Assembly (NCBI GenBank): GCA_943327025.2 | Contig: CALPVO020000046.1 | Span: 1-11,596 of the forward strand | From: Janthinobacterium lividum | GTDB taxonomy: Bacteria; Pseudomonadota; Gammaproteobacteria; Steroidobacterales; Steroidobacteraceae | Direction of reading: 5' to 3' | Length of the DNA: 11,596 nt | In this document: piece by piece, positions 1-11,596 of the stretch | Layout: each line of letters starts with the position of its first letter | How positions within the stretch are numbered: the stretch's first letter is position 1 | Translations under genes and position numbers: made by a program | Notes under the pieces: generated by a model | Told to the model about the DNA's origin: nothing | The model's input: only the letters and a program-made list of their open reading frames with translations | Database searches by the model: none

Positions 1-2063
1 CGCCCGGTAGCTGCCACGGCCTGGTGGTAGCTGGTATGAATGCGCCCGGTATTGGGGTTCACCTGCAACGGCAGCTTTTCAGTGTAGGTGCCGCGTAGCT
101 TGGCGAGACCGCGATGTTCGATGATGAGCTTGGGCAGTGGGTAGTCCGCTGCCAACTCTTCCAGCACATCTTCTGCGGTGGAAGGCTGTCCGGTCGGTGT
201 TTTGCGCAGCGGCGGAATGCCCAGCTTTTCGAACAAGATGTGCTGTAGCTGTTTGGGGCTTTCGAGATTGAACGGCTGCCCTGCGGCTAGGTGCGCTTCG
301 GCTTCCAGTTCCAGCATGCGCTTGCCGATTTCGCCGCTCTGGATGGCCAGCAAGGCGGTATCGACGAGCACGCCGCGACGTTCCATCCGCTGCAGTACCG
401 GCTGTAGTGGCTGCTCCAGCGTGGTGTAGACCGCGGCGAGGCCAGGGATGGCTTCCAGCCGTGGCCACAGCGTTTGGTGCAATTGGAAGGTGACGTCCGA
501 GTCTTCCGCCGCATATTCACCGGCCGTCTCGAGTGGCACTTGGTCGAAGGTAATCTGCTTCGCGCCCTTGCCTGCTACCTGCTCGAAGGTAATGGTTTCG
601 ATACCGAGATATTTGCGGGCGAGCGAGTCCATGTCGTGGCGCGTCGCCGTGCTGTCGAGCACGTAGCTTTCCAGCATGGTGTCCCAGGCAATGCCTGCCA
701 GCGCAATGCCATGGTTCTGCAGCACATGCAGGTCGTACTTGCCGTGTTGCATCACCTTGGGCCGCGCAGGGTCTTCCAGCAGTGGCTTGAGTGCGCCCAG
801 CACATAGTCACGCGAGAGTTGGTCCGGGGTGCCCGGGCCCGAGTGTGCCACCGGCACATAGGCGGCTTCACCGGGTGCCACCGCGAATGACACGCCGACG
901 ATTTGGGCGCGCATGTAGTCGAGGCTGGTGGTTTCAGTATCGAAGGAAAACAGTGGCGCGGCCTGCAGGCGTTCCAGCCATTTGGTGAAAGCTTCGGCAG
1001 TGAGTACGAGTTCGTAGTGGCGTGGCGCAGGGGGCGGAGGCGCGAGCACGCTCGTGCCCACAAGAGCTTCGGCTGTGGAAGTGCCATCTCCTGCTGAAAT
1101 GCTATCTGCCGTAGAACTGCTCTCGCCTGCGGAAGTGAACTTGCTCGCGACTGCGGCAGGAGCCCCCAGCAAGTCGGTTTCCATGACAGCGGCCGGCGGG
1201 GCGAACTGTCGCGCCAGCGAGCGAAGTTCCATGCGTTGGAACAACGTATGCAGCTTGTCGCGGTCGGGCTCGCCGAGGCGCAGGCTGTCGAAAGCCACGC
1301 CGAGTTCCACATCGCAACGAATGGTGGCCAGTTCGCGTGATAGCGGCAGGATGCCTTGGTGTTCACGCAGGCTCTCGCCCACCTTGCCGGGGACTTCGTC
1401 GGCTTTGGTGAGCAGTTCATCCAGCGTGCCGTACTGCCCCAGCCACTTTGCTGCGGTCTTGGGGCCGACTTTCGGAATGCCCGGAATGTTGTCAGCGCTA
1501 TCGCCCACGAGTGCGAGGTAGTCGATGACTTGCTCGGGCCAGACGTCGAACTTCGCTTTCACGCCCGCGCGGTCCATGACGCTGCCGCTCATGGTGTTGA
1601 TAAGCGTGACGCCGTCGTCGACGAGCTGCGCCATGTCCTTGTCGCCGGTGGACACGCGTACCTGCAGCCCCTGTGTGCGGGCGGTGCGAGTGAGCGTGCC
1701 GATGACATCGTCCGCTTCCACACCACTGATGCGCAGCAAAGGTAACCCCAGCCCCTGCACCGCTTCGAGTAGCGGTTCTACCTGTGCGCGCAGTTCATCG
1801 GGCATGGGCGGCCGGTGGGCTTTGTACTGCTCGAATAAGGCATCGCGGAAGGTCGGGCCGGAAGCGTCGAATACGATGGCTATGCGTGCGGGGTGCTCGT
1901 CCTTCAAGAACTTGAGCAGCATGTTCAGCACGCCGTAGACAGCGCCGGTAGGCTCGCCACGCGAATTCGATAGCGGCGGCAGCGCGTGGAAGGCGCGGTA
2001 CAGATACGACGAACCGTCGACGAGGTACAGCGTTTGGTCGCTACCGGTCTGGCTGGGTTCCAT
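1..2063 (-). CDS. polA: DNA polymerase I (3' end missing, runs off left edge)
   Basis: DNA polymerase I does gap filling, Okazaki-fragment primer removal and repair synthesis in the cytoplasm. I translated the minus strand by hand from the ATG at 2063: the frame is open for 687 codons to the window edge. Residues about 10-290 are the 5'-nuclease domain (VDGSSYLYRAFHALPP, VEADDVIGTL, STGDKDMAQLV, VGDSADNIPGIPKVGPKTA). Residues about 350-540 are the 3'-5' exonuclease with all three motifs intact: FDTETTSLD (Exo I, 374-382), the Asp of HGKYDLHVL (Exo II, 440-448) and YAAEDSDVT (Exo III, 517-525), so proofreading is predicted active. The polymerase domain begins after about 550 and the window ends near the SYHQAVAATG motif. 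By comparison with the roughly 930-aa E. coli enzyme, some 260 residues are missing. A Ser/Thr/Ala-rich linker (about 300-347) carries an imperfect 12-residue duplication. The start lies 5 bp after the lptM stop with no good Shine-Dalgarno, suggesting translational coupling. Confidence 0.97.
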   Translation of the reverse strand, partial: MEPSQTGSDQTLYLVDGSSYLYRAFHALPPLSNSRGEPTGAVYGVLNMLLKFLKDEHPARIAIVFDASGPTFRDALFEQYKAHRPPMPDELRAQVEPLLEAVQGLGLPLLRISGVEADDVIGTLTRTARTQGLQVRVSTGDKDMAQLVDDGVTLINTMSGSVMDRAGVKAKFDVWPEQVIDYLALVGDSADNIPGIPKVGPKTAAKWLGQYGTLDELLTKADEVPGKVGESLREHQGILPLSRELATIRCDVELGVAFDSLRLGEPDRDKLHTLFQRMELRSLARQFAPPAAVMETDLLGAPAAVASKFTSAGESSSTADSISAGDGTSTAEALVGTSVLAPPPPAPRHYELVLTAEAFTKWLERLQAAPLFSFDTETTSLDYMRAQIVGVSFAVAPGEAAYVPVAHSGPGTPDQLSRDYVLGALKPLLEDPARPKVMQHGKYDLHVLQNHGIALAGIAWDTMLESYVLDSTATRHDMDSLARKYLGIETITFEQVAGKGAKQITFDQVPLETAGEYAAEDSDVTFQLHQTLWPRLEAIPGLAAVYTTLEQPLQPVLQRMERRGVLVDTALLAIQSGEIGKRMLELEAEAHLAAGQPFNLESPKQLQHILFEKLGIPPLRKTPTGQPSTAEDVLEELAADYPLPKLIIEHRGLAKLRGTYTEKLPLQVNPNTGRIHTSYHQAVAATG

Positions 2064-2068
2064 GGAAG

Positions 2069-2299
2069 TCAGCGCTGCGGCGGCGGGTTGGCCGTTACCG
2101 CAGACGGTGCTGCAGCCGGCGTTGTGGCCGGCGCTGGTGTCGTCGTCTGCGCTGCGGGCGGTGGCGCTTCACGAATGACGATAGGCGTCGCCCCGCCACT
2201 ATCTGGCAAGGTCAAGGCGCCTTTCTGGCCGCAGGCCGCCAACAGTAATCCGGCGAGGAAGAGTGGCAGGGCGAGCACGCGTGCTGCAGGAAGTTTCAT
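2069..2299 (-). CDS. lptM: LptM-type small lipoprotein (YifL family)
   Basis: A 76-aa protein with a lipoprotein signal peptide: MKLPAAR, a hydrophobic segment (about residues 8-20), then lipobox LAAC with the lipidated Cys at 23. The mature start CGQKGALTLP is the signature of the LptM/YifL family. In E. coli LptM is known to assist oxidative maturation of the LptD outer-membrane LPS translocon. The rest (about 35-76) is low-complexity Pro/Ala/Thr, probably disordered. I chose the ATG at 2299 because AAAGG sits 6 bases upstream. A TTG at 2314 would add MKRPA before the signal peptide and is less likely. The gene starts 11 bp after the thioesterase stop and ends 5 bp before polA. In many gammaproteobacteria lptM lies next to lysA or dapF, so this polA neighbourhood is a different arrangement. 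Family membership rests on a short motif, but a distinctive one. Confidence 0.85.
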   Translation of the reverse strand: MKLPAARVLALPLFLAGLLLAACGQKGALTLPDSGGATPIVIREAPPPAAQTTTPAPATTPAAAPSAVTANPPPQR

Positions 2300-2310
2300 G
2301 GCTGGCCTTT

Positions 2311-2778
2311 TCAAGCGGGGGTATAGGTGAAGGTGGGGCCGTCGACGGGGCGTGGCACCACCGCCATGGTCAGGCGCGAGATACAGACAAGCGCACCGGC
2401 GTCATCGCGGATCTCGATACTCCACACTTGGGAGCGGCCGCCGATATGGAACGGGCGCGCCGTGCCGTGGACGAGACCACTGCGTACGCCCTTCAAGTGG
2501 TTGGCGTTGATTTCCTGACCGAGGGCAGACTGGTCGAGCGACAGGCTGAGGTTGGCAGCCACGCTGCCAACGGTTTCGGCCAGTGCCACGGAAGCGCCGC
2601 CGTGCAGCAGCCCCATGGGTTGATGGGTGCGCGAATCGACCGGCATCGAAAAAGTGAGGAAGTCGTCGCCGAAAGCTTCCGCGCGCATGCCGAGATGGGC
2701 GCTCAGGGCACGAACCGGTTCCTGCGTGAGGAAGTGGTTGATGGAGTCGACGGTGAATTCGCGTTTCCAGAGGGGCAT
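2311..2778 (-). CDS. Hotdog-fold acyl-CoA thioesterase, YdiI/MenI (PaaI) type
   Basis: A 155-aa cytoplasmic thioesterase of the 4-hydroxybenzoyl-CoA-thioesterase-like hotdog family. The motif HQPMGLLHGGASVALAETVG (52-71) matches the active site of E. coli YdiI (MenI). Gln53, His59 and Glu68 line up with the YdiI Gln48/His54/Glu63 set (numbers from memory), with constant spacing. The start at 2778 gives MPLWKREFTVDSIN, which matches the YdiI N-terminus. A TTG at 2826 would add 16 unmatched residues. The Shine-Dalgarno is weak. Family members hydrolyse aryl- or acyl-CoA thioesters such as DHNA-CoA in menaquinone synthesis, or act as housekeeping or proofreading thioesterases like EntH. The substrate cannot be read from sequence and no men genes are nearby, so no symbol is given. 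It is divergent from an acyl-CoA dehydrogenase, hinting at acyl-CoA metabolism, and is the first gene of the unit continuing into lptM and polA. Confidence 0.9.
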   Translation of the reverse strand: MPLWKREFTVDSINHFLTQEPVRALSAHLGMRAEAFGDDFLTFSMPVDSRTHQPMGLLHGGASVALAETVGSVAANLSLSLDQSALGQEINANHLKGVRSGLVHGTARPFHIGGRSQVWSIEIRDDAGALVCISRLTMAVVPRPVDGPTFTYTPA

Positions 2779-2927
2779 GGGTTCGGTCCGTGCGAGCAAG
2801 GCGTGAAGGCCTGAAGTGGATGGCAAGCGGCGATGGTTGGTCGTTCTGGCGAGACCGGCAGAATGGCATGCCCCACGGCGTATCGCGAGTAGCGCGTCGG
2901 GTTGCGCTGTCGGAGGCGGATTACTTA

Positions 2928-2957
2928 TTGTCGGACTATGTTACCCATGAGTTTAAT
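2928..2957 (+). promoter_or_regulatory. Candidate sigma70-like promoter for the acyl-CoA dehydrogenase
   Basis: In the 248-bp divergent intergenic region the only AT-rich patch is around 2917-2960. It holds TTGTCG (2928-2933) and TTTAAT (2952-2957) separated by 18 bp, a 4/6 and a 5/6 match to -35 and -10. The implied start site near 2964 leaves a leader of about 60 bases. The imperfect dyad GAGT-N7-ACTC (2949-2963) overlaps the -10. No convincing promoter for the opposite-strand thioesterase was found, and the rest of the intergenic region shows nothing recognisable. This is a weak pattern-based call. Confidence 0.25.
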
Positions 2958-3026
2958 TCACTCCGGGTTGAGGGGGGTCACGCGTACTAGACTCCAAGAA
3001 CTTCCCCTCTTGATGGTCCATTTCCC

Positions 3027-4739
3027 ATGCCCTACGTTGCTCCGGTCGCCGACCTGCTCCGCACTTTGTCCGCCAACGGCCAACTGGACCGCGTACTGGC
3101 CCTGCCGGGTTACGCCGAACTCGGCATCGGCCGCGAAGAAGTCGCCGCGGTTATCGAGGAAGCGGGGCGCTTGGCCACCAACGTGCTTGAGCCCATCAAC
3201 CGCAGCGGCGATCTGGAAGGCAGCCGCGTTACGCCGGAAGGCGTCATCTCGGCCAAGGGCTTCAAGGAAGCCTATGCCCAGTTCGTGGCCGGTGGCTGGC
3301 CCGCTTTGGCGGGCCCGGAGGCCTTTGGTGGCCAAGGGCTGCCCCACGTGGTGGGGACCGCGGTGGGCGAACAATGGCCGGCCAGCAACATGGCCTTTGG
3401 CCTGTGTTCGGAGCTGAGCGTGGGTGGCGTCATGGCGCTCGAAGCGCATGGCAGCGAGGAACTGAAGGCGCGCTGGTTGCCGCCCATGGTCAGTGGCCAG
3501 TACAGCGGCACCATGTGTTTGTCCGAGCCGCAGGCCGGTTCGGACCTTGGCGCCATCGCCACGCGTGCCGAGCCCGACGGCGACATGTGGAAGCTGTTCG
3601 GCCGCAAGATCTGGATTACCTGGGGCGAACACGATATGGCGGAGAACACCGTCCATCTCGTGCTGGCGCGTGCCGTGGGCAGCCCTGCCGGAACCAAGGG
3701 CTTGTCCCTGTTCTTGGTACCGCGCTACCTCGACGGCAAGAGCAACGACGTGCATTGCGTGTCGGTGGAACACAAGCTTGGCATCAAGGCCAGCCCGACT
3801 TGCGTCATGGCTTTCGGCGACAACGGCGGTGCGCGTGGCTGGTTGGTCGGCAACCTGAACCAGGGCATCAACAACATGTTCACCATGATGAACGTGATGC
3901 GCCTCGGTGTCGGCTTGCAGGGCGTCGGCCTCATGGAACGTGCTTACCAGCATGCTTTGGCTTACGCCAAGGAACGTGTGCAGGGCCGTAACACGGAAGG
4001 CGGCAAGGCCCGCATCATTGAACACGCCGACGTGCGTCGCATGCTGCTGGAAATGCGTGCGCTCACTTCTGCTTCGCGCGGCATTGCCATGATGGCGAGC
4101 GCTGCTATCGATATCTCCAGCCATAGCGACGACCCGGTGGAGCGTGAAGCCGCGCGTGTGCGTGGCGACCTGCTCACCCCCATCGTGAAGTCGTTCCCTT
4201 CGGAAAGTGCCCTCAAAGTGACCTCGCACGCCATTCAGGTATGGGGCGGCATGGGCTTCGTGGAAGAGACGGGCGTGGCGCAGTACTACCGCGACTCGCG
4301 CATCATCCCCATCTACGAAGGCACGAACGGCATTCAGGCCGCCGACCTCATCGGTCGCAAGACCACGCGTGATGGTGGTGCGGGCTATACCGCGCTGCTG
4401 AACGAAATTGCCGCTTTCCGCGGCGACAAGGCGGGTGTGGCGCAAGCTGCGCTACAGCGCTTCGTGGCGCGTCTGCGGGAAGTGTTGCCGGCGGTGTTGG
4501 CCGGCGGTGGGCACGCGGCTTTCGCGGGCGCGGTAGCGCACGACTTCCTCATGGCCACCGGCCACTTGGTGGGCTTGTACGCGCTGGTGCGCAATGCCAA
4601 CGACCCGTTGGCGCTGCCGCACGACGAAGAACTGGCCGCCTTCCACGCTGCGCATTTGCTACCGCAGGCCTACGCGCACCTTGAAGTGGTGTTGGCCGGT
4701 GGCGATGCCGTGGCGGCGTTCGGCGTCGAGGCGTTCTAA
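3027..4739 (+). CDS. Acyl-CoA dehydrogenase, DmdC-like long form with C-terminal extension
   Basis: A 570-aa flavoprotein oxidising an acyl-CoA to the 2-enoyl-CoA, passing electrons to electron-transfer flavoprotein. The N-terminal alpha domain comes first (about 40-155). The FAD-binding beta segment CLSEPQAGSDLGAI (164-177) and WITWGEHDMAENTVHLVLA follow. The C-terminal alpha domain has QVWGGMGFVEETGVAQYYRDSRI and IPIYEGTNGIQA, in which Glu431 is the predicted catalytic base. After about 450 there is the extra helical domain of the 590-600-aa class that includes DmdC (3-methylmercaptopropionyl-CoA dehydrogenase). This copy is slightly short at the end. The start MPYVAPVADLLRTL is typical of the class, although no strong Shine-Dalgarno precedes it. 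It is monocistronic: divergent from the thioesterase and convergent with argH. Most proteobacterial members are uncharacterised or handle medium/long-chain acyl-CoAs, so DMSP catabolism should not be assumed. The long open frames antisense to it are shadows. Confidence 0.93.
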   Translation: MPYVAPVADLLRTLSANGQLDRVLALPGYAELGIGREEVAAVIEEAGRLATNVLEPINRSGDLEGSRVTPEGVISAKGFKEAYAQFVAGGWPALAGPEAFGGQGLPHVVGTAVGEQWPASNMAFGLCSELSVGGVMALEAHGSEELKARWLPPMVSGQYSGTMCLSEPQAGSDLGAIATRAEPDGDMWKLFGRKIWITWGEHDMAENTVHLVLARAVGSPAGTKGLSLFLVPRYLDGKSNDVHCVSVEHKLGIKASPTCVMAFGDNGGARGWLVGNLNQGINNMFTMMNVMRLGVGLQGVGLMERAYQHALAYAKERVQGRNTEGGKARIIEHADVRRMLLEMRALTSASRGIAMMASAAIDISSHSDDPVEREAARVRGDLLTPIVKSFPSESALKVTSHAIQVWGGMGFVEETGVAQYYRDSRIIPIYEGTNGIQAADLIGRKTTRDGGAGYTALLNEIAAFRGDKAGVAQAALQRFVARLREVLPAVLAGGGHAAFAGAVAHDFLMATGHLVGLYALVRNANDPLALPHDEELAAFHAAHLLPQAYAHLEVVLAGGDAVAAFGVEAF

Positions 4740-4755
4740 CTGCCCGCTCGCTGAA

Positions 4756-4779
4756 CGGGGCGCGCGGTTGCGCGCCGCG
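4756..4779. terminator. GC-rich hairpin between convergent genes, possible bidirectional terminator
   Basis: GGCGCGC (4759-4765), loop GGTT, GCGCGCC (4770-4776) form a perfect 7-bp stem. Two more pairs follow beyond a mismatch (4756-4757 with 4778-4779). It sits in the 55-bp gap between the stops of the acyl-CoA dehydrogenase and argH. It is not a textbook intrinsic terminator: the nearest T-run on the plus strand (4798-4803) is about 20 bases away and lies inside argH, and there is no T-run on the argH side. A direct repeat CACGTCA occurs at 4781-4787 and 4791-4797. The location favours a role in separating the two transcripts. Confidence 0.4.
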
Positions 4780-4794
4780 TCACGTCACATCACG

Positions 4795-5985
4795 TCATTT
4801 TTTCCCGAAGAGCTGTGCGCCCACGCGGCGGTAGGCTTCGCGGAAGGGAATGCCCTCTTCGATGACCAGGCGGTTGGCCTGTTCTGCGGCGTGAATGGAA
4901 GGGTCGAGATGAATGTTCTCGGCGACGAACGTCACTCCATCCAAGGCTACGGGGAGCAGGTCCGTGGTGGCGATGGCCAAGTCGATGCCGCGAAACACCG
5001 GTACCTTCAGCAACTGCAGGTCGCGGTGGTAGCCGCTGGTGAGCTTGGCGATGATGCCAAGCGCTTCATGCAGGCAGGCCTGCGCCGTGGCAGTGCGGCC
5101 ACGAATGAGTTCAAACACATCCGGGTTGCGCTTCTGCGGCATGATGGAACTGCCGGTGGTGAAGGCATCTGGTAGCTTCACGAAGGCGAACTCTTGCGTG
5201 TAGTACAGCATGAGGTCCGCTGAGAGGCGGCCCAGGTCCGTCATTAGCAGCGCAATTTCGAACAGGAGCTGTGCTTCTGCCTTGCCACGCGATATTTGTA
5301 CGGCAGTGACCGGGCTATGCGCCTCAGTGAAGCCCAAGCGGTGTGCAGTGGCTTCACGGTCCAGCGGTAGCGCCGGCGTGCCGTAGCCGGCAGCACTGCC
5401 GAGTGGGCTCTTGCCCAGACGACGCAGCACGGTTTGTACACCCGTGGCGTCATCCCGTACTTCAGCAGCAAAGCCACCGGCCCACAAAGCCACGCTGCTC
5501 GGCATGGCCTGCTGCAGGTGCGTGTAGCCGGGCAGCGCCAGGTCCGGGTGGCGCGCAGCCAAGCGGTCCAGCGCTTGGGCTACTTGCTCCGCGCCTGCAG
5601 CCACTTGGCCGACCGCATCACGCAGATACAAGCGCAGCGCCGAAAGCACTTGGTCGTTACGCGAACGCCCCAGATGGATGCGACCGCCAGCCTCACCGGC
5701 GCGCGCTACCAACTGTGCTTCTAGCGCCGTCTGGCCATCTTCCTGTTCCAGTTGCACGCGCCACTCGCCCGCGGCATGCGCGGCGGCGGCGGCATTCAAT
5801 GCGGCAGTGAGCGTATCGAGATCGGTGCGGGACAAAAGCCCAACCGCCTGCAAGCCTTCGGCATGCGCGATGGAGGCGCGCACGTCGTAAGCCACCAAGC
5901 GGTCGTCGAGTGCGTGGTCTTCACCGGCGGTGTAGGCCAGCACCCGGCCGTCTAGCGGCGCGCCTTTGTCCCACAGACGGCTCAC
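4795..5985 (-). CDS. argH: Argininosuccinate lyase
   Basis: Last step of arginine synthesis: argininosuccinate to arginine plus fumarate, a cytoplasmic homotetramer of the fumarase/aspartase superfamily. Visible signatures are HLGRSRNDQ (104-112), PGYTHLQQA (152-160, His156 the conserved His) and the mobile-loop signature GSSIMPQKRNP (278-288, catalytic Ser about 280). The GTG at 5985 is the start: it makes a GTGA overlap with the argB stop, leads into LWDKG...LDDRLVAYDV as in other ArgH proteins, and has AGGG 9 bases upstream. Two oddities. The usual ED-x-H-S/T motif reads EDGQTALE (82-89), so Gln85 replaces a conserved active-site His. The protein has 396 residues and stops soon after PFREAYRRVG, where relatives carry some 30-50 more residues. 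All other motifs are intact, so it is probably functional. It is the last gene of the operon and faces the acyl-CoA dehydrogenase. Confidence 0.96.
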   Translation of the reverse strand: MSRLWDKGAPLDGRVLAYTAGEDHALDDRLVAYDVRASIAHAEGLQAVGLLSRTDLDTLTAALNAAAAAHAAGEWRVQLEQEDGQTALEAQLVARAGEAGGRIHLGRSRNDQVLSALRLYLRDAVGQVAAGAEQVAQALDRLAARHPDLALPGYTHLQQAMPSSVALWAGGFAAEVRDDATGVQTVLRRLGKSPLGSAAGYGTPALPLDREATAHRLGFTEAHSPVTAVQISRGKAEAQLLFEIALLMTDLGRLSADLMLYYTQEFAFVKLPDAFTTGSSIMPQKRNPDVFELIRGRTATAQACLHEALGIIAKLTSGYHRDLQLLKVPVFRGIDLAIATTDLLPVALDGVTFVAENIHLDPSIHAAEQANRLVIEEGIPFREAYRRVGAQLFGKK

Positions 5986-6911
5986 GGCTGGCTGCCCTGC
6001 TCGGCGGCCGACAGCGCATCGATGTCTTCGACAATGAGCGTGCCAGTGCCTTCGTTCGTGAACACTTCCGCCAGCAAGGCATCCGGGTTCTTGAACGACA
6101 CGACGTGGACGCGACGCACACCGCCCTTGATAGCCGCTTCGATAGCCGAAGCCTTGGGCAGCATGCCGTCGGCGAGGCTGCCGCTGGCGTGCAGCATGGC
6201 GAGACCTTCGAGGTCCGTATAGGACACGATGGAGCGCGGGTCCGCGATGTTCTCTAGGATGCCCGGCGCGCCGGTGCACAGCAGCAGCTTTTCAGCGCCC
6301 AGTGCGGCACCGATGGCGGCGGCCACGGTGTCGGCGTTCACGTTCAGCACATTGCCGGCGTCGTCCGCACAGAGCGGGCTGACTACCGGCATAAAGCCGG
6401 CGTCCAGCGCCTGGCGCAGTACTTCCGGGTTCACCCCATCCACATCGCCCACGAAGCCGTAGTCCACGGTGGTGCCGTCCTTCTGCAGCACGGGTGCGCG
6501 CTTGTGCACGGTGACAAGACCAGCATCCACGCCCGAGTAGCCCACGGCGTTGATATCGAGTTCCTTGCACATGGCGAGCAGCTGCGTATTCAGTAGGCCG
6601 TTCAGCACCATGACGGTGACCTCAATGGTCTTGCCATCGGTAACGCGACGGCCTTGCACCATCTGCGGCTGCAGGCCGAGCGAGCGCTGCATTTCGTCGA
6701 GCTGCGGGCCGCCGCCGTGCACCAGCACCACGCGGATACCTACCTGATGAAGAATGGCGACTTGTTCGAGGAAGGCGCGCGTAGCGCTCTTGTCTGCGAA
6801 CAGGGCGCCCCCCACCTTCACCACAAACACCTTACCCTTGTACATGCGAATGTACGGCGCAGCACTGCGCAGGGCACGGACGGCAACGGTCTGGTCAGCA
6901 CGGAAGTTCAT
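5982..6911 (-). CDS. argB: N-acetylglutamate kinase
   Basis: Phosphorylates N-acetyl-L-glutamate with ATP, the second and usually feedback-controlled step. It is a 309-aa amino-acid-kinase fold: VVKVGGALF (31-39), VVLVHGGGPQ (61-70, glycine loop), GRRVTD (87-92), VGYSGVDAG, LNVNADTVAA (189-198, substrate site) and a C-terminal EVFTNEGTGTLI. The N-terminal stretch before YKGKVFVVKVGG (about 25 residues, predicted helix) is the extension seen in hexameric arginine-inhibited kinases and absent from the arginine-insensitive E. coli enzyme, so feedback inhibition is inferred. There is no C-terminal GNAT domain, unlike the bifunctional synthase/kinase described from Xanthomonas. The ATG at 6911 is preferred over that at 6920 because GAGGA at 6921-6925 is 9 bases from the former and abuts the latter. 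It follows argF' after 31 bp and overlaps argH by four bases. Confidence 0.96.
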   Translation of the reverse strand: MNFRADQTVAVRALRSAAPYIRMYKGKVFVVKVGGALFADKSATRAFLEQVAILHQVGIRVVLVHGGGPQLDEMQRSLGLQPQMVQGRRVTDGKTIEVTVMVLNGLLNTQLLAMCKELDINAVGYSGVDAGLVTVHKRAPVLQKDGTTVDYGFVGDVDGVNPEVLRQALDAGFMPVVSPLCADDAGNVLNVNADTVAAAIGAALGAEKLLLCTGAPGILENIADPRSIVSYTDLEGLAMLHASGSLADGMLPKASAIEAAIKGGVRRVHVVSFKNPDALLAEVFTNEGTGTLIVEDIDALSAAEQGSQP

Positions 6912-6942: not shown

Positions 6943-7941
6943 TCAACGTGCGAGGAGGCGGTGGAGTACCGCCATCTGCACGACGAGTCGGTTGTGGGCC
7001 TCACGCAGCACAATGCTGCGGGGGCCATCGAGCACTTCGTCCGTCACAGCGACATTGCGCCGTACCGGGAGGCAGTGCATGAAATGAGCGGTGCTGGCGG
7101 CAGCCGCGAAGCTGGCTTCGCTTACCTGCCAATCGTTCAAGTGTTGGCGCAGCGCGATATCGGCGGCCGCATCGCCATAAGGGGCAGTGCAGCCCCATTC
7201 CTTGGCGTAAACCACATGGGCGCCGGCGGTGGCAGCAGCGCGGTCAGTGGTTTCGGTGACGCTGCCCCCGGAAGCCGCGGCAGCAGCGCGCGCCTTGGCC
7301 ATGGTGGCCTCGGGCAGGGCGTAGCCTTCAGGGCGACAAACCACCACTTCCATGCCGCGGTGCGCAGCCATGTGCAGCGTGGCGGCCGGTACAGCGAGCG
7401 GTAGGGCGCGCGGGTGCGTTACCCAGTGCAGCACGAACTTGCCACCGCGGGGCACGCCAACATCGTCCAGCGTCTTCCAGTCCGCCAACGCTTGGCAGGG
7501 GTGGTTCACTGCAGACTCGAGGTTGATGAGCGGCTTGTTGATGAGCGCGGCCATGGCGGTGAATTGCTCTTCAGCCAAGTCTGCTGCGAGGTCCTTGCCT
7601 TCGGCGAAAGCGCGCACGCCCATGGCATCGCAGTAAGAGGCCAACACCGGGAAGCCTTCGCGGATGTGCTCCGCGGCACCACCATCCATGCGCACACCCA
7701 AGCGGGTTTCCAGTTGCCACGTGCCCTGCCCGGGTGTGATGACAAAGCTGGTGCCGCCAAGCCGTTGCATGCCGGCCTGCATGGAAGCGAGCGTCCGCAG
7801 CGACGGGTTCATGAAGACCAGGCCGAGAATCTTGCCAGCCAGCGCGTGCGGCTCCGGATGGTCTTGCAGGCGTTGGGCCAAGGCCAGGAGGTCGGTGACT
7901 TCTTCGCGGGTGAAGTCCGCGAGGTCGAGGAAACGTTTCAT
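6943..7941 (-). CDS. argF': N-acetylornithine carbamoyltransferase (AOTCase)
   Basis: Transfers the carbamoyl group from carbamoyl phosphate to N-acetyl-L-ornithine, giving N-acetylcitrulline. This is the variant route of xanthomonads, related to the succinylornithine enzyme of Bacteroidota. The 332-aa protein has the aspartate/ornithine carbamoyltransferase fold with the AOTCase-type phosphate loop MNPSLRT (44-50) in place of STRTR. Other motifs are NHPCQALAD (146-154), VVYAKEWG (243-250), HCLPVRRNV (289-297, Cys290) and a C-terminal NRLVVQ. Glu78 in WQLETRLG aligns with Xanthomonas Glu92, the residue reported to favour acetyl- over succinylornithine. The Xanthomonas Lys302, reported to be carboxylated and to affect activity, aligns with Ala298 here. 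The length is close to the roughly 339 residues of the Xanthomonas enzyme. The ATG at 7941 makes an ATGA overlap with the argD stop, with GGAG 8 bases upstream. Annotation as plain ornithine carbamoyltransferase would be wrong. Confidence 0.93.
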   Translation of the reverse strand: MKRFLDLADFTREEVTDLLALAQRLQDHPEPHALAGKILGLVFMNPSLRTLASMQAGMQRLGGTSFVITPGQGTWQLETRLGVRMDGGAAEHIREGFPVLASYCDAMGVRAFAEGKDLAADLAEEQFTAMAALINKPLINLESAVNHPCQALADWKTLDDVGVPRGGKFVLHWVTHPRALPLAVPAATLHMAAHRGMEVVVCRPEGYALPEATMAKARAAAAASGGSVTETTDRAAATAGAHVVYAKEWGCTAPYGDAAADIALRQHLNDWQVSEASFAAAASTAHFMHCLPVRRNVAVTDEVLDGPRSIVLREAHNRLVVQMAVLHRLLAR

Positions 7942-9095
7942 GCAGGAATCTCCGCCAGCGCCGTGGCGAGCAAGTCGACGTGCTCGCGGCGCAAGGTGAA
8001 CGGGGGCAGCAGGCGCAGGATATGCGGGTCGCCGCTGGTGCCCGTGAGGATGTTGCGAGCCAACAGGGCCTGCTGCACTTCTTTTGCCGGACGGGTGGTA
8101 CGCAGACCGAGCAGGAAGCCGGCGCCCTGGAAGCCGGTCACTGGGCCCACTTGGCACGTGGCACGGACGTAGTCCGACACTGCACGCACGTTGGCCAGCA
8201 GGTTTTCGGTTTCCAGAATGTCCACCACAGCCTCGACGATGGCGCAGGCCATGGGGCCGCCGCCAAACGTCGTGCCGAGGCCTTCCAGTTTCACAGCGGA
8301 GCGCACGCGGTCGCCATACATCAACGCGGAGACGGGGAAGCCGGCGCCGAGTGCCTTGGCGGTGGTCAGGATGTCCGGCTCCACGCCATAGAGGTTCGCG
8401 CCGAACGGCTGACCGACTCGGCCCATGCCGCTCTGCACTTCATCGAAGATGAGCACCGCTCCGGTTTCATCGCAGCGGCGACGCAGTGCGTCGGCCATCG
8501 CTTGTCCGATATCGTAGGCACCGCCAACGCCTTGCACGGGTTCAACGATGACAGCAGCAGTCTTCTCCGTAATGCCGGCGCAGGCCGCATCCACATCGCT
8601 GCGTGAAACCCACTTCGCATCGAACGGGGTGCGCGGAAAGCCGTACCACTTCTCGGCGGCGCCCCAAGTGATGGCGCCGGCAGCGGCGGTACGCCCATGC
8701 CAGCCCTGCTCGAGTGCCACGGCTTCACTACGCCCCGTCAGTTTGAAAGCCAAGCGCAAAGCGTTCTCGTTCGCTTCGGCACCAGAGTTGATGAAGAACA
8801 CCTGGTTCAGCGACAGCCCGGCAAACTGAACCAAGCGATGCGCTGCCCGTTCGCGAATCTCCATGGGCACGGCGTTGGTCTGAAACACCACGCTACGGGC
8901 CTGCTGTTCCAGCGCTGCCAACCAGCGCGGATGGCCATAGCCGAGAGCCGCCACCGCATGGCCACCATACAGGTCCAACACACGTCGCCCAGCCGCATCC
9001 TGCAGCCAGACATCGTTGGCGCTGGCGACCTCGAACGGGTACTGCGCGAACACATGGGCGAGATTGGATGGGGTGGAATCAGCGACGGCGTTCAT
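7938..9095 (-). CDS. argD: Acetylornithine aminotransferase (class III, PLP)
   Basis: Transfers an amino group from glutamate to N-acetylglutamate semialdehyde, giving N-acetylornithine. It is a 385-aa fold-type-I class III aminotransferase: FINSGAEANENALRLAF (101-117), GWHGRTAAAGAITWG, LIFDEVQSGMGR (215-226, Asp218 contacts the pyridine nitrogen) and TTAKALGAGFP (244-254, Lys247 the Schiff-base lysine), ending in RLLPPFTL. The ATG at 9095 has TGAGGAG about 11 bases upstream and lies 14 bp after the argC stop. The stop overlaps argF' (ATGA). Class III enzymes of this type can also accept succinyl-diaminopimelate intermediates of lysine synthesis. The position between argC and argF' makes arginine the main job. 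Confidence 0.95.
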   Translation of the reverse strand: MNAVADSTPSNLAHVFAQYPFEVASANDVWLQDAAGRRVLDLYGGHAVAALGYGHPRWLAALEQQARSVVFQTNAVPMEIRERAAHRLVQFAGLSLNQVFFINSGAEANENALRLAFKLTGRSEAVALEQGWHGRTAAAGAITWGAAEKWYGFPRTPFDAKWVSRSDVDAACAGITEKTAAVIVEPVQGVGGAYDIGQAMADALRRRCDETGAVLIFDEVQSGMGRVGQPFGANLYGVEPDILTTAKALGAGFPVSALMYGDRVRSAVKLEGLGTTFGGGPMACAIVEAVVDILETENLLANVRAVSDYVRATCQVGPVTGFQGAGFLLGLRTTRPAKEVQQALLARNILTGTSGDPHILRLLPPFTLRREHVDLLATALAEIPA

Positions 9096-9109: not shown

Positions 9110-10165
9110 TCAGGTCCAGCCAGGGGCAGTAGCGAGCAGACCGGCAGTCTGCTCATAGCCGCACAGGCGGTTCATCCATTGCACGGCGCCGCCAGCGGCA
9201 CCCTTGGTCAAGTTGTCGATCGCCACCATCACGGCCACGGTCTGGCCATCGGCCGCCGCGGACAGATGCGCGTAGTTGCTGGTGGCCACGTCCTTCACGC
9301 GCGGGGCCTCGTCGAGCACACGCACGAAAGGCTGGCCCGCATAAAACTCGCGTAGGGCGGCGACGACGTCGGCAGTCTTCATCGGGCGGGCCAGCTTGGC
9401 CTGCGCCGTCAGGTGAATGCCGCGCGCGAATGGGCCGGAGTGGGGCACGAAGGCCAAGTGCGGGCGCGTCCCGGTGAGGTTGGCAACGATACCTTCCACT
9501 TCCGGCGCGTGACGGTGGCCCAAGGCGTTGTAGCTATAGAGGTCGCTATGGCGCTGCGGATGGTGCGTGCCAGCCGTGGGTGAGCGCCCAGCGCCGGTGC
9601 TGCCAGTCACGCCGCTCACGAACACCTGCGGCTCGGCAATGCCCAGCTTCACGAGCGGCACGGTGGCCAGCAGCGTTGCCGTGGCAAAGCACCCCGGATG
9701 TGCCACGTGCTGCGTATGCAGTTCGGTGACATGCTCAGGGGCAGCACAGGTGAACTGCGCCTGCCGGGCGGGAGCGGCGTGCGCATGCTTGTACACCTGC
9801 GCGTAGGCCTCGACATCGCTGAAGCGGTAGTCCGCCGAGATATCCACGACCCGCGGATTCGCGCCTGCTGCGTTGGCCGCAGTGAGCAAGCGGTCGATGA
9901 GCGTGGCCGAAACACCATGCGGCGCGGCGCCGAACAGAGCGCTTTCGCCGGCAGCGCAAAGACGCTGCGTCAGCGTGGCTTCATCGATGAACGTCAGTTC
10001 CGGGAAGGCTGCCGCCAAGTGGGGGAAAGCTTTCGCCACGCGCTCGCCGGGCTGGCTATCCGAAAGAATGCCAGCCACTGCGAGGTGCGGGTGCGCTGCC
10101 AACAAGCGCAGCAGTTCACCGGCCACATAGCCGGTGCCACCGAGAATGAACGCGGGACGCTTCAT
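9110..10165 (-). CDS. argC: N-acetyl-gamma-glutamyl-phosphate reductase
   Basis: NADPH-dependent reduction of N-acetylglutamyl phosphate to the semialdehyde. The 351-aa protein begins with a Rossmann motif ILGGTGYVAGELLRLL (7-22). Next come VVDISADYRF (106-115), the active-site AHPGCFATATLL (155-166) with nucleophile Cys159, GVTGSTGAGRSP (185-196), FVPHSGPFARGIH (239-251) with the likely catalytic His242, and the C-terminal DNLTKGAAGGAVQWMN (317-332). The length is normal for the family. The start at 10165 has GGAAGG 6 bases upstream and is only 2 bp from the stop of the preceding P-loop gene, so the two are clearly co-transcribed. Confidence 0.97.
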   Translation of the reverse strand: MKRPAFILGGTGYVAGELLRLLAAHPHLAVAGILSDSQPGERVAKAFPHLAAAFPELTFIDEATLTQRLCAAGESALFGAAPHGVSATLIDRLLTAANAAGANPRVVDISADYRFSDVEAYAQVYKHAHAAPARQAQFTCAAPEHVTELHTQHVAHPGCFATATLLATVPLVKLGIAEPQVFVSGVTGSTGAGRSPTAGTHHPQRHSDLYSYNALGHRHAPEVEGIVANLTGTRPHLAFVPHSGPFARGIHLTAQAKLARPMKTADVVAALREFYAGQPFVRVLDEAPRVKDVATSNYAHLSAAADGQTVAVMVAIDNLTKGAAGGAVQWMNRLCGYEQTAGLLATAPGWT

Positions 10166-10167
10166 CT

Positions 10168-11265
10168 TCAGCCTTCCACCGCATCGGCAGGCGTGCGTGA
10201 ATTGGCCAGCGCCGTCAGGCCTACGGCATCAATGATGCAATCCGCCAGCGCGGCACCGGAAGTCATCGCGTTGAAGGCCGGTACGTTCAGTTGGTCTTGA
10301 ATGATGTCCACGCCGACCTGGTTGTCGGTAGCGGGGCCGGTGACCGCGCAAGGCTCCACCAAGAATTTCTCGCGCAGCAGCTTCACGCCACCCCAAGCGG
10401 CTACCGGGTCGTTCGCCGAAAGCACCACCCCCGTGAGCACGGCACGGATGTCCGGTGCGTTCAGGATAGCCTCGACGCCATAGGCGCCGAGCAAGCCGTC
10501 ACCGAGTTCGAACACGATGACGTCGGGCTGCCCCTTGGCCATTTCCGTCAGCATGACGCGCGTTAGCGCGGGGCCGGTCTTGTTCGTGGTGGTGATGACG
10601 CCGAAGTCTGTGAAGATGCTCGTCTTGCGGGCACCGGCGTCTTCCATGGCCATGATGTCGCGCCGCAGCGAAACACCCGTGGCCTTGAAGGCGTGGACGT
10701 TCAGGCCGCGGTGACGCATGCGCGAGATGATGGCGCAGGCGGCAGCAGTCTTGCCCGCTTCCATGCAGGAACCGGCCAGCGCAACGACCGGTACGCCCTG
10801 CGTGTCGACGGTGGCGTTGTAGTCCAGCGCCTGATAGCCAGCACGTGCGGGCACGCCGATGCGCTCACCCAAGTAAGGGAAGCTGAGCACCACGCCGAGC
10901 ACGCGGCAGTCGAAAGGCTTGCCACGGTCCGGGTTAGCACTGGTGCATACGCCCATGACGCCGCCGATGTTCAGCATCTGGATGATGTCGCCGGCCTTGA
11001 GGTTGGTGGGCAAGTGGCCCGAATACCCGAACAGCGCCTTGCGATGGCCTAGCGCGCCCACTACCACGTCGCCCTTCACCACCTTCGCCATGCGGCCGGA
11101 GGTGAGCTCGAGCGTGTTGTAGGTGCTCTTGTTGTTCAGTACTTCGGCTACTACCACCACGCCTTCATCGCAGGGGATGTTGTCCGTGGAGACGCGCAGC
11201 TCGCGACCGAGGCCGCAGGCCTGCGTAACGGAACCCACTTTATCGACAACGACGGTCTTCATCAT
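10168..11265 (-). CDS. Uncharacterised P-loop protein embedded in the arginine operon
   Basis: A 365-aa soluble protein with no signal peptide or membrane segment, not recognised as any known arginine enzyme. The N-terminal half (1-155) is rich in predicted beta strands and glycine turns: TDNIPCDEGVVVVAEVLNN, GDVVVGALGHRKALFGYSG (65-83) and LNIGGVMGVCTSANPDRGKPF. The C-terminal half starts with strand VPVVAL and a Walker A-like loop GSCMEAGKT (165-173). It continues with HAFKATGVSLRRDIMAMED, then VIVFELGDGLLGAYGVEAIL (249-268, a strand ending in an acidic residue and Gly-rich loop). The order and GxxxEAGKT loop resemble dethiobiotin synthetase and DUF1611/DgcN-type proteins, without full-length identity that I can claim. 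It starts at 11265 with GGAGG 9 bases upstream, overlaps the argG stop (ATGA) and ends 2 bp before argC, so it is dosed with the pathway. A missing arginine function, an ATP-dependent ligase/acyltransferase or a regulator are all possible. Confidence 0.85.
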   Translation of the reverse strand: MMKTVVVDKVGSVTQACGLGRELRVSTDNIPCDEGVVVVAEVLNNKSTYNTLELTSGRMAKVVKGDVVVGALGHRKALFGYSGHLPTNLKAGDIIQMLNIGGVMGVCTSANPDRGKPFDCRVLGVVLSFPYLGERIGVPARAGYQALDYNATVDTQGVPVVALAGSCMEAGKTAAACAIISRMRHRGLNVHAFKATGVSLRRDIMAMEDAGARKTSIFTDFGVITTTNKTGPALTRVMLTEMAKGQPDVIVFELGDGLLGAYGVEAILNAPDIRAVLTGVVLSANDPVAAWGGVKLLREKFLVEPCAVTGPATDNQVGVDIIQDQLNVPAFNAMTSGAALADCIIDAVGLTALANSRTPADAVEG

Positions 11266-11596
11266 GGCGTGCTGCCTCCAGCGCGGGTGTGGAACATGCC
11301 GGGCAGCGCCAGCATCTTGGAATAGCCGAGGGCGTCGGCAGCAGTCCATTCACCGGCCGCTTCGCCATAGACGCCCTTCGAGGCGGCCATGAGCGAATAG
11401 GCCGAGTCATAGCCTTCTATGAACAAGTTGCCGGGGCGCAGGCCGACGGTGACGGTGCCCGTGACACGCTGCTGGCTCGACAACATGAGTGCTTCAATAT
11501 CGCGACACACCGGGTCGAGATGCTGGCCTTCGTGCACCAGGTCGCCGTAGAGCGCAGCCACTTGGTCCTTCACGCGCTGCTGACGTGGCAGCAGCA
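11262..11596 (-). CDS. argG: Argininosuccinate synthase, C-terminal 110 residues only
   Basis: ATP-dependent condensation of citrulline and aspartate. Only the last 110 codons are in the window, running in from the right edge with the frame LLPRQQRVKDQVAALYGD. Recognisable are YGDLVHEGQHLDPVCRDIEA, VTGTVTVGLRPGN and SAYSLMAASKGVYGEAAGEW, which correspond to the C-terminal oligomerisation part of ArgG. The HEG-x(3)-DPV-x-RDIEA pattern resembles the form found in xanthomonads and Bacteroidota (from memory). An internal GTG at 11573 is not a real start. The stop overlaps the next gene by four bases. The nucleotide-binding N-terminus and the operon promoter lie outside. Confidence 0.9.
   Translation of the reverse strand, partial: LLPRQQRVKDQVAALYGDLVHEGQHLDPVCRDIEALMLSSQQRVTGTVTVGLRPGNLFIEGYDSAYSLMAASKGVYGEAAGEWTAADALGYSKMLALPGMFHTRAGGSTP
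11275..11279 (-). promoter_or_regulatory. Shine-Dalgarno site for the P-loop gene, inside the argG 3' end
   Basis: GGAGG on the minus strand, 9 bases before the ATG at 11265. It is the strongest ribosome-binding site in the operon segment seen here. It supports MMKTVVV as the true N-terminus over an upstream start at 11349 within argG. Confidence 0.7.

Follow-up and report, generated by a model that had tools for sequence, protein, structure and literature searches.

A P-loop protein encoded between argG and argC is a candidate for the first, glutamate-acylating enzyme of arginine biosynthesis in Steroidobacteraceae

The stretch of DNA analysed here (11,596 nucleotides; hereafter the window) is a contig assigned to Janthinobacterium lividum and, in the GTDB lineage, to the family Steroidobacteraceae. 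It carries a minus-strand arginine-biosynthesis cluster in the order argG, gene X, argC, an argD-like gene, argF′, argB and argH. The subject of this report is gene X, which a preliminary description of the window had set apart as an unassigned BioD/DUF1611-like P-loop protein. The intact 365-amino-acid frame placed there at 10168–11265 is a real open reading frame (ORF) of 365 codons, and its strand, which had not been given, is minus. Translation may start at 11265 or at 11262; the second codon (MKTVVVD) is the start in most relatives of X, so the true length may be 364 amino acids. A Shine–Dalgarno-like GGAGG (11275–11279, minus strand) lies 9 nt 5′ of the first ATG. The tight packing that had been described is found as well: argG ends at 11262, its TGA sharing bases with the start of X in an ATGA overlap, and argC starts at 10165, just after the X stop codon and a gap of 2 bp. 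According to the ORF, the comparison of starts, a structural model and fold matches, the protein comprises a β-rich N-terminal part (residues ~1–150) and a C-terminal P-loop domain (residues ~155–350). The Walker A-like sequence GSCMEAGKT is indeed encoded at 10747–10773 (minus strand), with the codon of Lys172 at 10750–10752 and a G-x5-GKT spacing that we take to be the same as in BioD. The P-loop is followed by a K-A-T-G motif (Lys194 to Gly197; 10675–10686, minus strand), which HMMER aligns with the K..TG motif of dethiobiotin synthetase, and by an E-L-G-D-G motif (Glu253 to Gly257; 10495–10509, minus strand), the Glu of which may be catalytic.

The neighbours of X, all on the minus strand, encode most of an arginine pathway. 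The C-terminal 110 amino acids of ArgG (argininosuccinate synthase) are encoded at 11262–11594, the gene continuing past the window edge. ArgC (N-acyl-γ-glutamyl-phosphate reductase; 9110–10165) scores 298.2 bits with TIGR01850 (cut-off 233.6). The argD-like gene (7938–9095), under the NCBIfam argD cut-off, encodes a class-III aminotransferase that is a probable N-acylornithine transaminase. The argF′ product (6943–7941) is a carbamoyltransferase of the N-acetylornithine (AOTCase) or N-succinylornithine (SOTCase) type (NF003384, 352.5 bits; cut-off 288), with Ala, Pro and Ala at the positions of Glu92, Asn185 and Lys302 of Xanthomonas campestris AOTCase. ArgB (5982–6911; TIGR00761, 214.4 bits, cut-off 151.3) consists of 309 amino acids and comprises the amino-acid kinase domain only, with no acetyltransferase domain, just as the preliminary description had stated in denying it a synthase domain. 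ArgH (argininosuccinate lyase; 4795–5985) scores 293 bits with TIGR00838 (cut-off 279.5), its GTG start being set by comparison with the 396-amino-acid frame of a near-identical locus, L002. Past argH lie genes for DNA polymerase I (3–2063, minus strand), a 4HBT thioesterase (2311–2826, minus strand) and an acyl-CoA dehydrogenase (3027–4739, plus strand).

The frame is far beyond chance: a search of genome contigs gave 199 stretches encoding relatives of X, of which the best 80 were kept; titles of their records include uncultured proteobacterium, Gammaproteobacteria bacterium, Steroidobacteraceae, Steroidobacter and Povalibacter. Being the best 80 of 199, these loci over-represent close relatives; order- and class-level samples were added. 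The strong positional link to arginine synthesis that had been proposed is borne out: argC lies downstream of X in 79 of the 80 loci, the contig of the 80th ending soon past X, and argG lies upstream in 78. The complete order argG, X, argC, argD, argF′, argB, argH is present in 62 of the 80, the rest being cut or missing a gene. Among X, argC, argD, argF′ and argB, X is the most conserved gene relative to the window in 53 of 63 loci; the median identity is 76.9% for X, 64.0% for argC and 73.0% for argF′. Within the taxonomic family an X match (any match, E up to 0.001) was obtained in 145 of 150 genomes, a count that includes contig-end fragments of X and one genome, 74% complete, whose sole match (G083; E 7e-31, positions 47–337) looks paralogous. 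All 95 family genomes with completeness of at least 90% and contamination of at most 5% contain X. At the class level, 31 of 370 genomes match: three belong to the family, seven have an arg-linked X at 41–67% identity and 21 give weaker matches (E 4.7e-12 to 3.7e-31). The placement argG-X-argC is thus kept down to ~41% identity. Four class-level relatives have the order argD-argF′-argB-argH-argG-X-argC and a fifth, on a short contig, has argG-X-argC. No arg gene was found within 2–4 kb around 20 of the 21 weaker class-level matches, and no arg cluster in 11 wider stretches around such matches. In a genome of another class, an X that is 72% identical stands in the compact unit argR-like-X-argC-argB (L158, 6089–9739), and this arrangement suggests that the unit was transferred horizontally.

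Variants of the cluster were also seen. X-argC-argB is kept at 8001–11132 of L024, and L013 and L017 have argG-X-argC-argF′-argB with no argD between. Next to the X-bearing arg cluster there is an ArgR-like gene in L002 (6314–6763), where its best match is argR at 106.2 bits (cut-off 130.45), and, as judged by eye, in L112 (5450–5941) and L116 (1194–1610). Two records with the X cluster, L023 and L045, are titled as Klebsiella pneumoniae metagenome-assembled genomes and are probably misnamed.

Profile scans of the window protein placed X under every Pfam and NCBIfam cut-off. The label 'DUF1611-like' holds only as a description of weak similarity: X scores 13.5 bits with PF07755 (gathering cut-off 25) over residues 152–197 only, the same weak match recurs in 52 of 58 orthologues at E up to 1 (best 0.00032), and hhalign of X against DUF1611 gives a weak match (probability 15–26%, E 0.0018–0.00075, 43–101 columns). 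The DgcN model NF041892 is not among the NCBIfam matches of X, of which only mobB is listed at E up to 0.1. Membership of DUF1611/DgcN was rejected on these cut-offs, as was membership of MobB (14.7 bits against 76.2 in NCBIfam, 14.9 against 26.6 in Pfam). BioD was likewise set aside, since neither Pfam nor NCBIfam gives a BioD family for the window protein and the profile match spans ~50 positions only. No GNAT family occurs among the Pfam matches of X and its 58 orthologues, and X has no NAT or ArgJ match.

The structure of X was predicted with a mean predicted local distance difference test score (pLDDT) of 95.0 and a predicted template-modelling score (pTM) of 0.91 from an alignment to which distant relatives had been added; in an earlier model, built from 58 close orthologues, the N-terminal half was poorly predicted (mean pLDDT 74.8). 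The comparison with DUF1611/DgcN and BioD structures that had been recommended shows that the C-terminal domain has a P-loop fold of the BioD/CTP-synthase/DUF1611 type, with scores of 17.2 for CTP synthase, 16.7 for DUF1611 (PDB 2obn), 16.2 for BioD and 15.6 for the N-acetyltransferase DgcN (PDB 7xrj). X shares this fold with the ATP-using enzymes BioD and CTP synthase, and the P-loop and K..TG motif with BioD by profile match. Unlike them, X has an extra N-terminal part of ~150 amino acids and is linked to an arginine operon, and there is no full-length sequence match. Compared with DUF1611/DgcN, the consensus of X is GTCMEAGKT...KATG...ELGDG rather than GTDCALGKK...RATG...EGQGS, and X is fixed in the arginine operon. 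Conservation was examined in an alignment (A4; 365-residue numbering) of 42 sequences, 29 of them arg-type X proteins and 13 paralogues from a wider unnamed P-loop family, 22–28% identical to X and found outside arg clusters. The P-loop Gly, Met and Gly-Lys-Thr are invariant in all 42, as are the Lys and Gly of the K-A-T-G motif; Lys172-Thr173, Lys194, Asp203, Asp209 and Glu253 are among the residues invariant in both groups. Ser12, Lys46, Tyr49, Asn99, Asp314 and Asn315 are present in 29/29 arg-type proteins and 0/13 paralogues, which makes them candidates for a glutamate/succinyl pocket.

Since the genome of the window is only 75% complete, near-complete relatives were used to ask which known enzymes of the first arginine step accompany X. 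The absence tests covered 61 genomes (49 with X and 12 without), namely 32 near-complete genomes representing 19 genera of the family and 29 further genomes. ArgJ was found in none of the 32 or the 29 but was matched in 10 of 14 control genomes. The ArgA model TIGR01890 was likewise over its cut-off in 0/32 and 0/29. It gives a sub-cut-off match in all 32 family genomes over model positions ~2–280, the kinase part, which might be taken for a synthase but in the clusters viewed is ArgB; the GNAT part of the model gives only short separate matches in eight of the 32. Only one of the 14 controls passes the TIGR01890 cut-off, so that this absence alone is weak; ArgJ and NAT were tested too. The NAT domain PF04768 of NAGS-K, an ArgB–NAT fusion, was found in 0/49 X-bearing genomes and 0/14 controls but in nine of the 12 X-less genomes, which are of the same order. 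In these genomes X occurs where ArgJ (0/61), ArgA over cut-off (0/61) and NAT (0/49) are absent.

Among the 21 genomes of the order that were sampled regardless of X (G887–G907), nine have X only, nine NAT only, three neither and none both (p 0.0011). Grouped into 14 families, the corresponding counts are six, six, two and none (p 0.0097); both values are from Fisher tests that ignore ancestry, the 14-family version being the more cautious. The test was limited to these genomes because X had already been seen in G297, G467, the five class-level genomes and G716; the 32 family genomes were left out too, since they came from a list where all genomes at least 90% complete have X. The exclusion concerns arg-type X, because two NAT genomes, G889 and G892, carry only a paralogue. 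Three genomes of the order that are at least 92% complete (G894, G897 and G906) show no match to X, NAT, ArgJ or TIGR01890, and may be auxotrophic for arginine or make it by a different route.

The nature of the acyl group can be approached through ArgF′. According to a review (PMC4581275), Glu92, Asn185 and Lys302 mark an N-acetylornithine carbamoyltransferase, and A/S/P/V/Q, P and V/I/E at these positions the N-succinylornithine enzyme; for GapMind (PMC7311316), S, P, A or V at the first of these positions indicates a preference for the succinylated substrate. In X-linked ArgF′ from the window and 75 loci, two of the 77 argF′ matches having been left out as short or containing a stop, position 92 is Ala in 72, Pro in three and Val in one of 76, and position 185 is Pro in 76/76. 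Position 302 is Ala in 69, Glu in four and Val in three, and never Lys. Nine more X-linked ArgF′ proteins from the order have Ala, Pro and then Ala (two) or Val (seven), so that succinyl-type residues occupy the two main specificity positions in 85/85. NAGS-K-linked ArgF′ of the same order instead has Glu92 and Asn185 in 7/7, the third position being Lys in six and Gln in the seventh. In one NAGS-K cluster (L207) an argE family match lies between argG and argBA, and a similar gene is seen by eye in another (L214). The order thus seems to have two alternative modules, one acetyl and one probably succinyl, and X goes with the latter. In the literature consulted, a succinylated arginine pathway is described for Bacteroidetes only (PMC7311316, in part), and the carbamoyltransferase residues of the X-linked clusters are of the same succinyl type.

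We propose, with a probability of roughly 0.64, that X catalyses the first, committing step of arginine biosynthesis, the N-acylation of L-glutamate, with N-succinyl-L-glutamate as the most likely product. The earlier suggestion of a non-orthologous glutamate acetyltransferase would thus stand as regards a glutamate acyltransferase taking the place of the missing N-acetylglutamate synthase, because X genomes have no ArgJ, ArgA over cut-off or fused NAT. The acetyl group is probably wrong: succinylation is likelier, given the succinyl-type residues of ArgF′. In the proposed reaction, in which we infer roles for Lys172, Lys194 and Glu253, the P-loop domain would probably hold the phosphates of succinyl-coenzyme A (succinyl-CoA), as is assumed for the acetyltransferase DgcN, which has a solved structure of the same fold, and the glutamate amine would attack the thioester. 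ArgB, ArgC, ArgD and the succinyl-type ArgF′ would then process succinylated intermediates, a desuccinylase would release citrulline, and ArgG and ArgH would complete the pathway. X would share its reaction and pathway position with ArgA, NAGS-K, ArgJ and the BT3761 type of synthase, but it has no match to GNAT, NAT or ArgJ, and NAGS-K occurs in genomes of the same order that have no X. Among the titles and openings of abstracts listed in searches of PMC, none reports a P-loop acylglutamate synthase.

Several observations weigh against this proposal. Position 302 of ArgF′ is mostly Ala (69/76), which is outside the published V/I/E set, and NCBIfam calls the window ArgF′ an N-acetylornithine carbamoyltransferase, over cut-off; GapMind, in a passage of PMC7311316, describes the Bacteroides succinyl enzyme as misannotated under that same name in Swiss-Prot. 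Inspection of nine X loci by eye revealed no ArgE-like gene, no search aimed at a desuccinylase having been made. The fold matches are tied and do not single out an acyl-CoA mechanism, and, two positions ahead of T-G, X carries a Lys but the DUF1611 alignment an Arg. Finally, apart from a GNAT group common to all six X genomes compared, a second, unnamed GNAT group is present in five of the six, in one of them weakly; it was not found in G249, where four of five GNAT matches were compared.

Succinyl-CoA is favoured as donor by analogy with DgcN, the main alternative being that X catalyses the first step as an amide ligase driven by ATP, joining glutamate to succinate or acetate like its ATP-using fold relatives CTP synthase and dethiobiotin synthetase. 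We consider this possible but not probable: DgcN, the relative that acylates glutamate, is named an acetyltransferase, and all arginine-pathway acylglutamate synthases known to us use acyl-CoA or transacylation. Its more specific form, in which a P-loop ligase condenses succinate and glutamate with ATP and without CoA and, together with the succinyl-type ArgF′, makes up a second complete arginine module alternating with acetyl NAGS-K/ArgE within one order, is unlikely. It is rather improbable that an unrecognised GNAT elsewhere in the genome carries out the first step and that X serves the arginine enzymes as a nucleotide-dependent sensor or partner. GNAT proteins do occur in 15/15 genomes searched, the unnamed group just mentioned is shared by five of the six X genomes, and the Bacteroidetes pathway has a different proposed synthase, BT3761 (PMC7311316, in part). 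However, the only one-to-one group in all six X genomes among the GNATs compared (4/5 in G249, 6/7 in G184, 6/7 in G016, 7/7 in G355, 8/10 in G015 and 9/9 in G003) is RimI, all six members being over cut-off, and mutual exclusion with the NAGS-K domain is not required of a sensor.

Because the X cluster seems to lack both argE and a synthase, X might instead supply the other missing step, deacylating N-acylcitrulline or moving the acyl group from acylcitrulline to glutamate as a P-loop counterpart of ArgJ. With argE present in the NAGS-K cluster and none seen in the X loci inspected, two activities are absent and X is the one additional gene to account for them. This role is nevertheless very unlikely, as we know of no such P-loop amide hydrolase or transacylase and as the argR-like-X-argC-argB unit groups X with steps 2 and 3. 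In Bacteroides, moreover, the desuccinylase candidate BT3549 is numbered far from BT3758–BT3761 (PMC7311316, in part). Least credible of all is that X is a DgcN/DUF1611 protein placed here by chance and acting on D-glutamate, on which DgcN reportedly acts. The weak DUF1611 similarity (best E 0.00032 among the 58 orthologues) points that way, but a chance location cannot yield conserved linkage, and the window's genome has a separate DgcN-like DUF1611 protein (L182, 1474–2577; G000:C223) that scores 441.8 bits against a cut-off of 480. DUF1611 is over cut-off in 24 of 59 relatives' genomes, a count that includes frames of 25.4–26.8 bits in G889, G892 and G003, the frame being the X paralogue in the first two; clear DUF1611 proteins occur in 21, and none was found in the one-contig X genome G028.

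The first arginine step can be a gap in genome-based predictions; a preliminary version of GapMind, as recounted in part of PMC7311316, found neither an ArgA nor an ArgJ candidate for B. thetaiotaomicron. The first enzyme proposed for the Bacteroidetes pathway is BT3761, more than 50% identical to Cabys_1732 (PMC7311316, in part), and the Caldithrix/Bacteroidetes-type synthase is located in argAGCBEH (PMC5317091, in part), whereas the enzyme proposed here is a P-loop protein of Proteobacteria. If the proposal for X is true, the gap is closed in an entire bacterial family as well as in relatives belonging to other families, an unrelated protein superfamily joins the known acylglutamate synthases, and arginine synthesis through succinylated intermediates occurs in Proteobacteria as well as in Bacteroidetes. 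The wider unnamed P-loop family, the other members of which lie outside arginine operons, would then have a functional lead.

Members of this wider family were located in L119 (6373–7392), L122 (6394–7476), L124 (7251–8366), L126 (4525–5694), L129 (6256–7464), L159 (7133–8158), L160 (6818–7921), L161 (7118–8230) and L163 (7295–8347). The paralogues of L119 and L163 have no NCBIfam family match, and three distant paralogues are barely over the DUF1611 cut-off (25.4–26.7 bits). In the window's genome, a weak partial match to the X profile (G000:C97:7495–7731, E 8.5e-7) is perhaps a paralogue fragment. By eye, the neighbours of the wider family often include an ABC-transporter-like gene together with a hydrolase or porin, and an M20 carboxypeptidase-like gene adjoins the paralogue in L119 (family match) and L159 (by eye). 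The L163 paralogue lies near putative arginine/succinylornithine catabolism genes recognised by eye (395–5826), among them an argD/astC-like gene (38% identity) and, by eye, astD- and astB-like frames.
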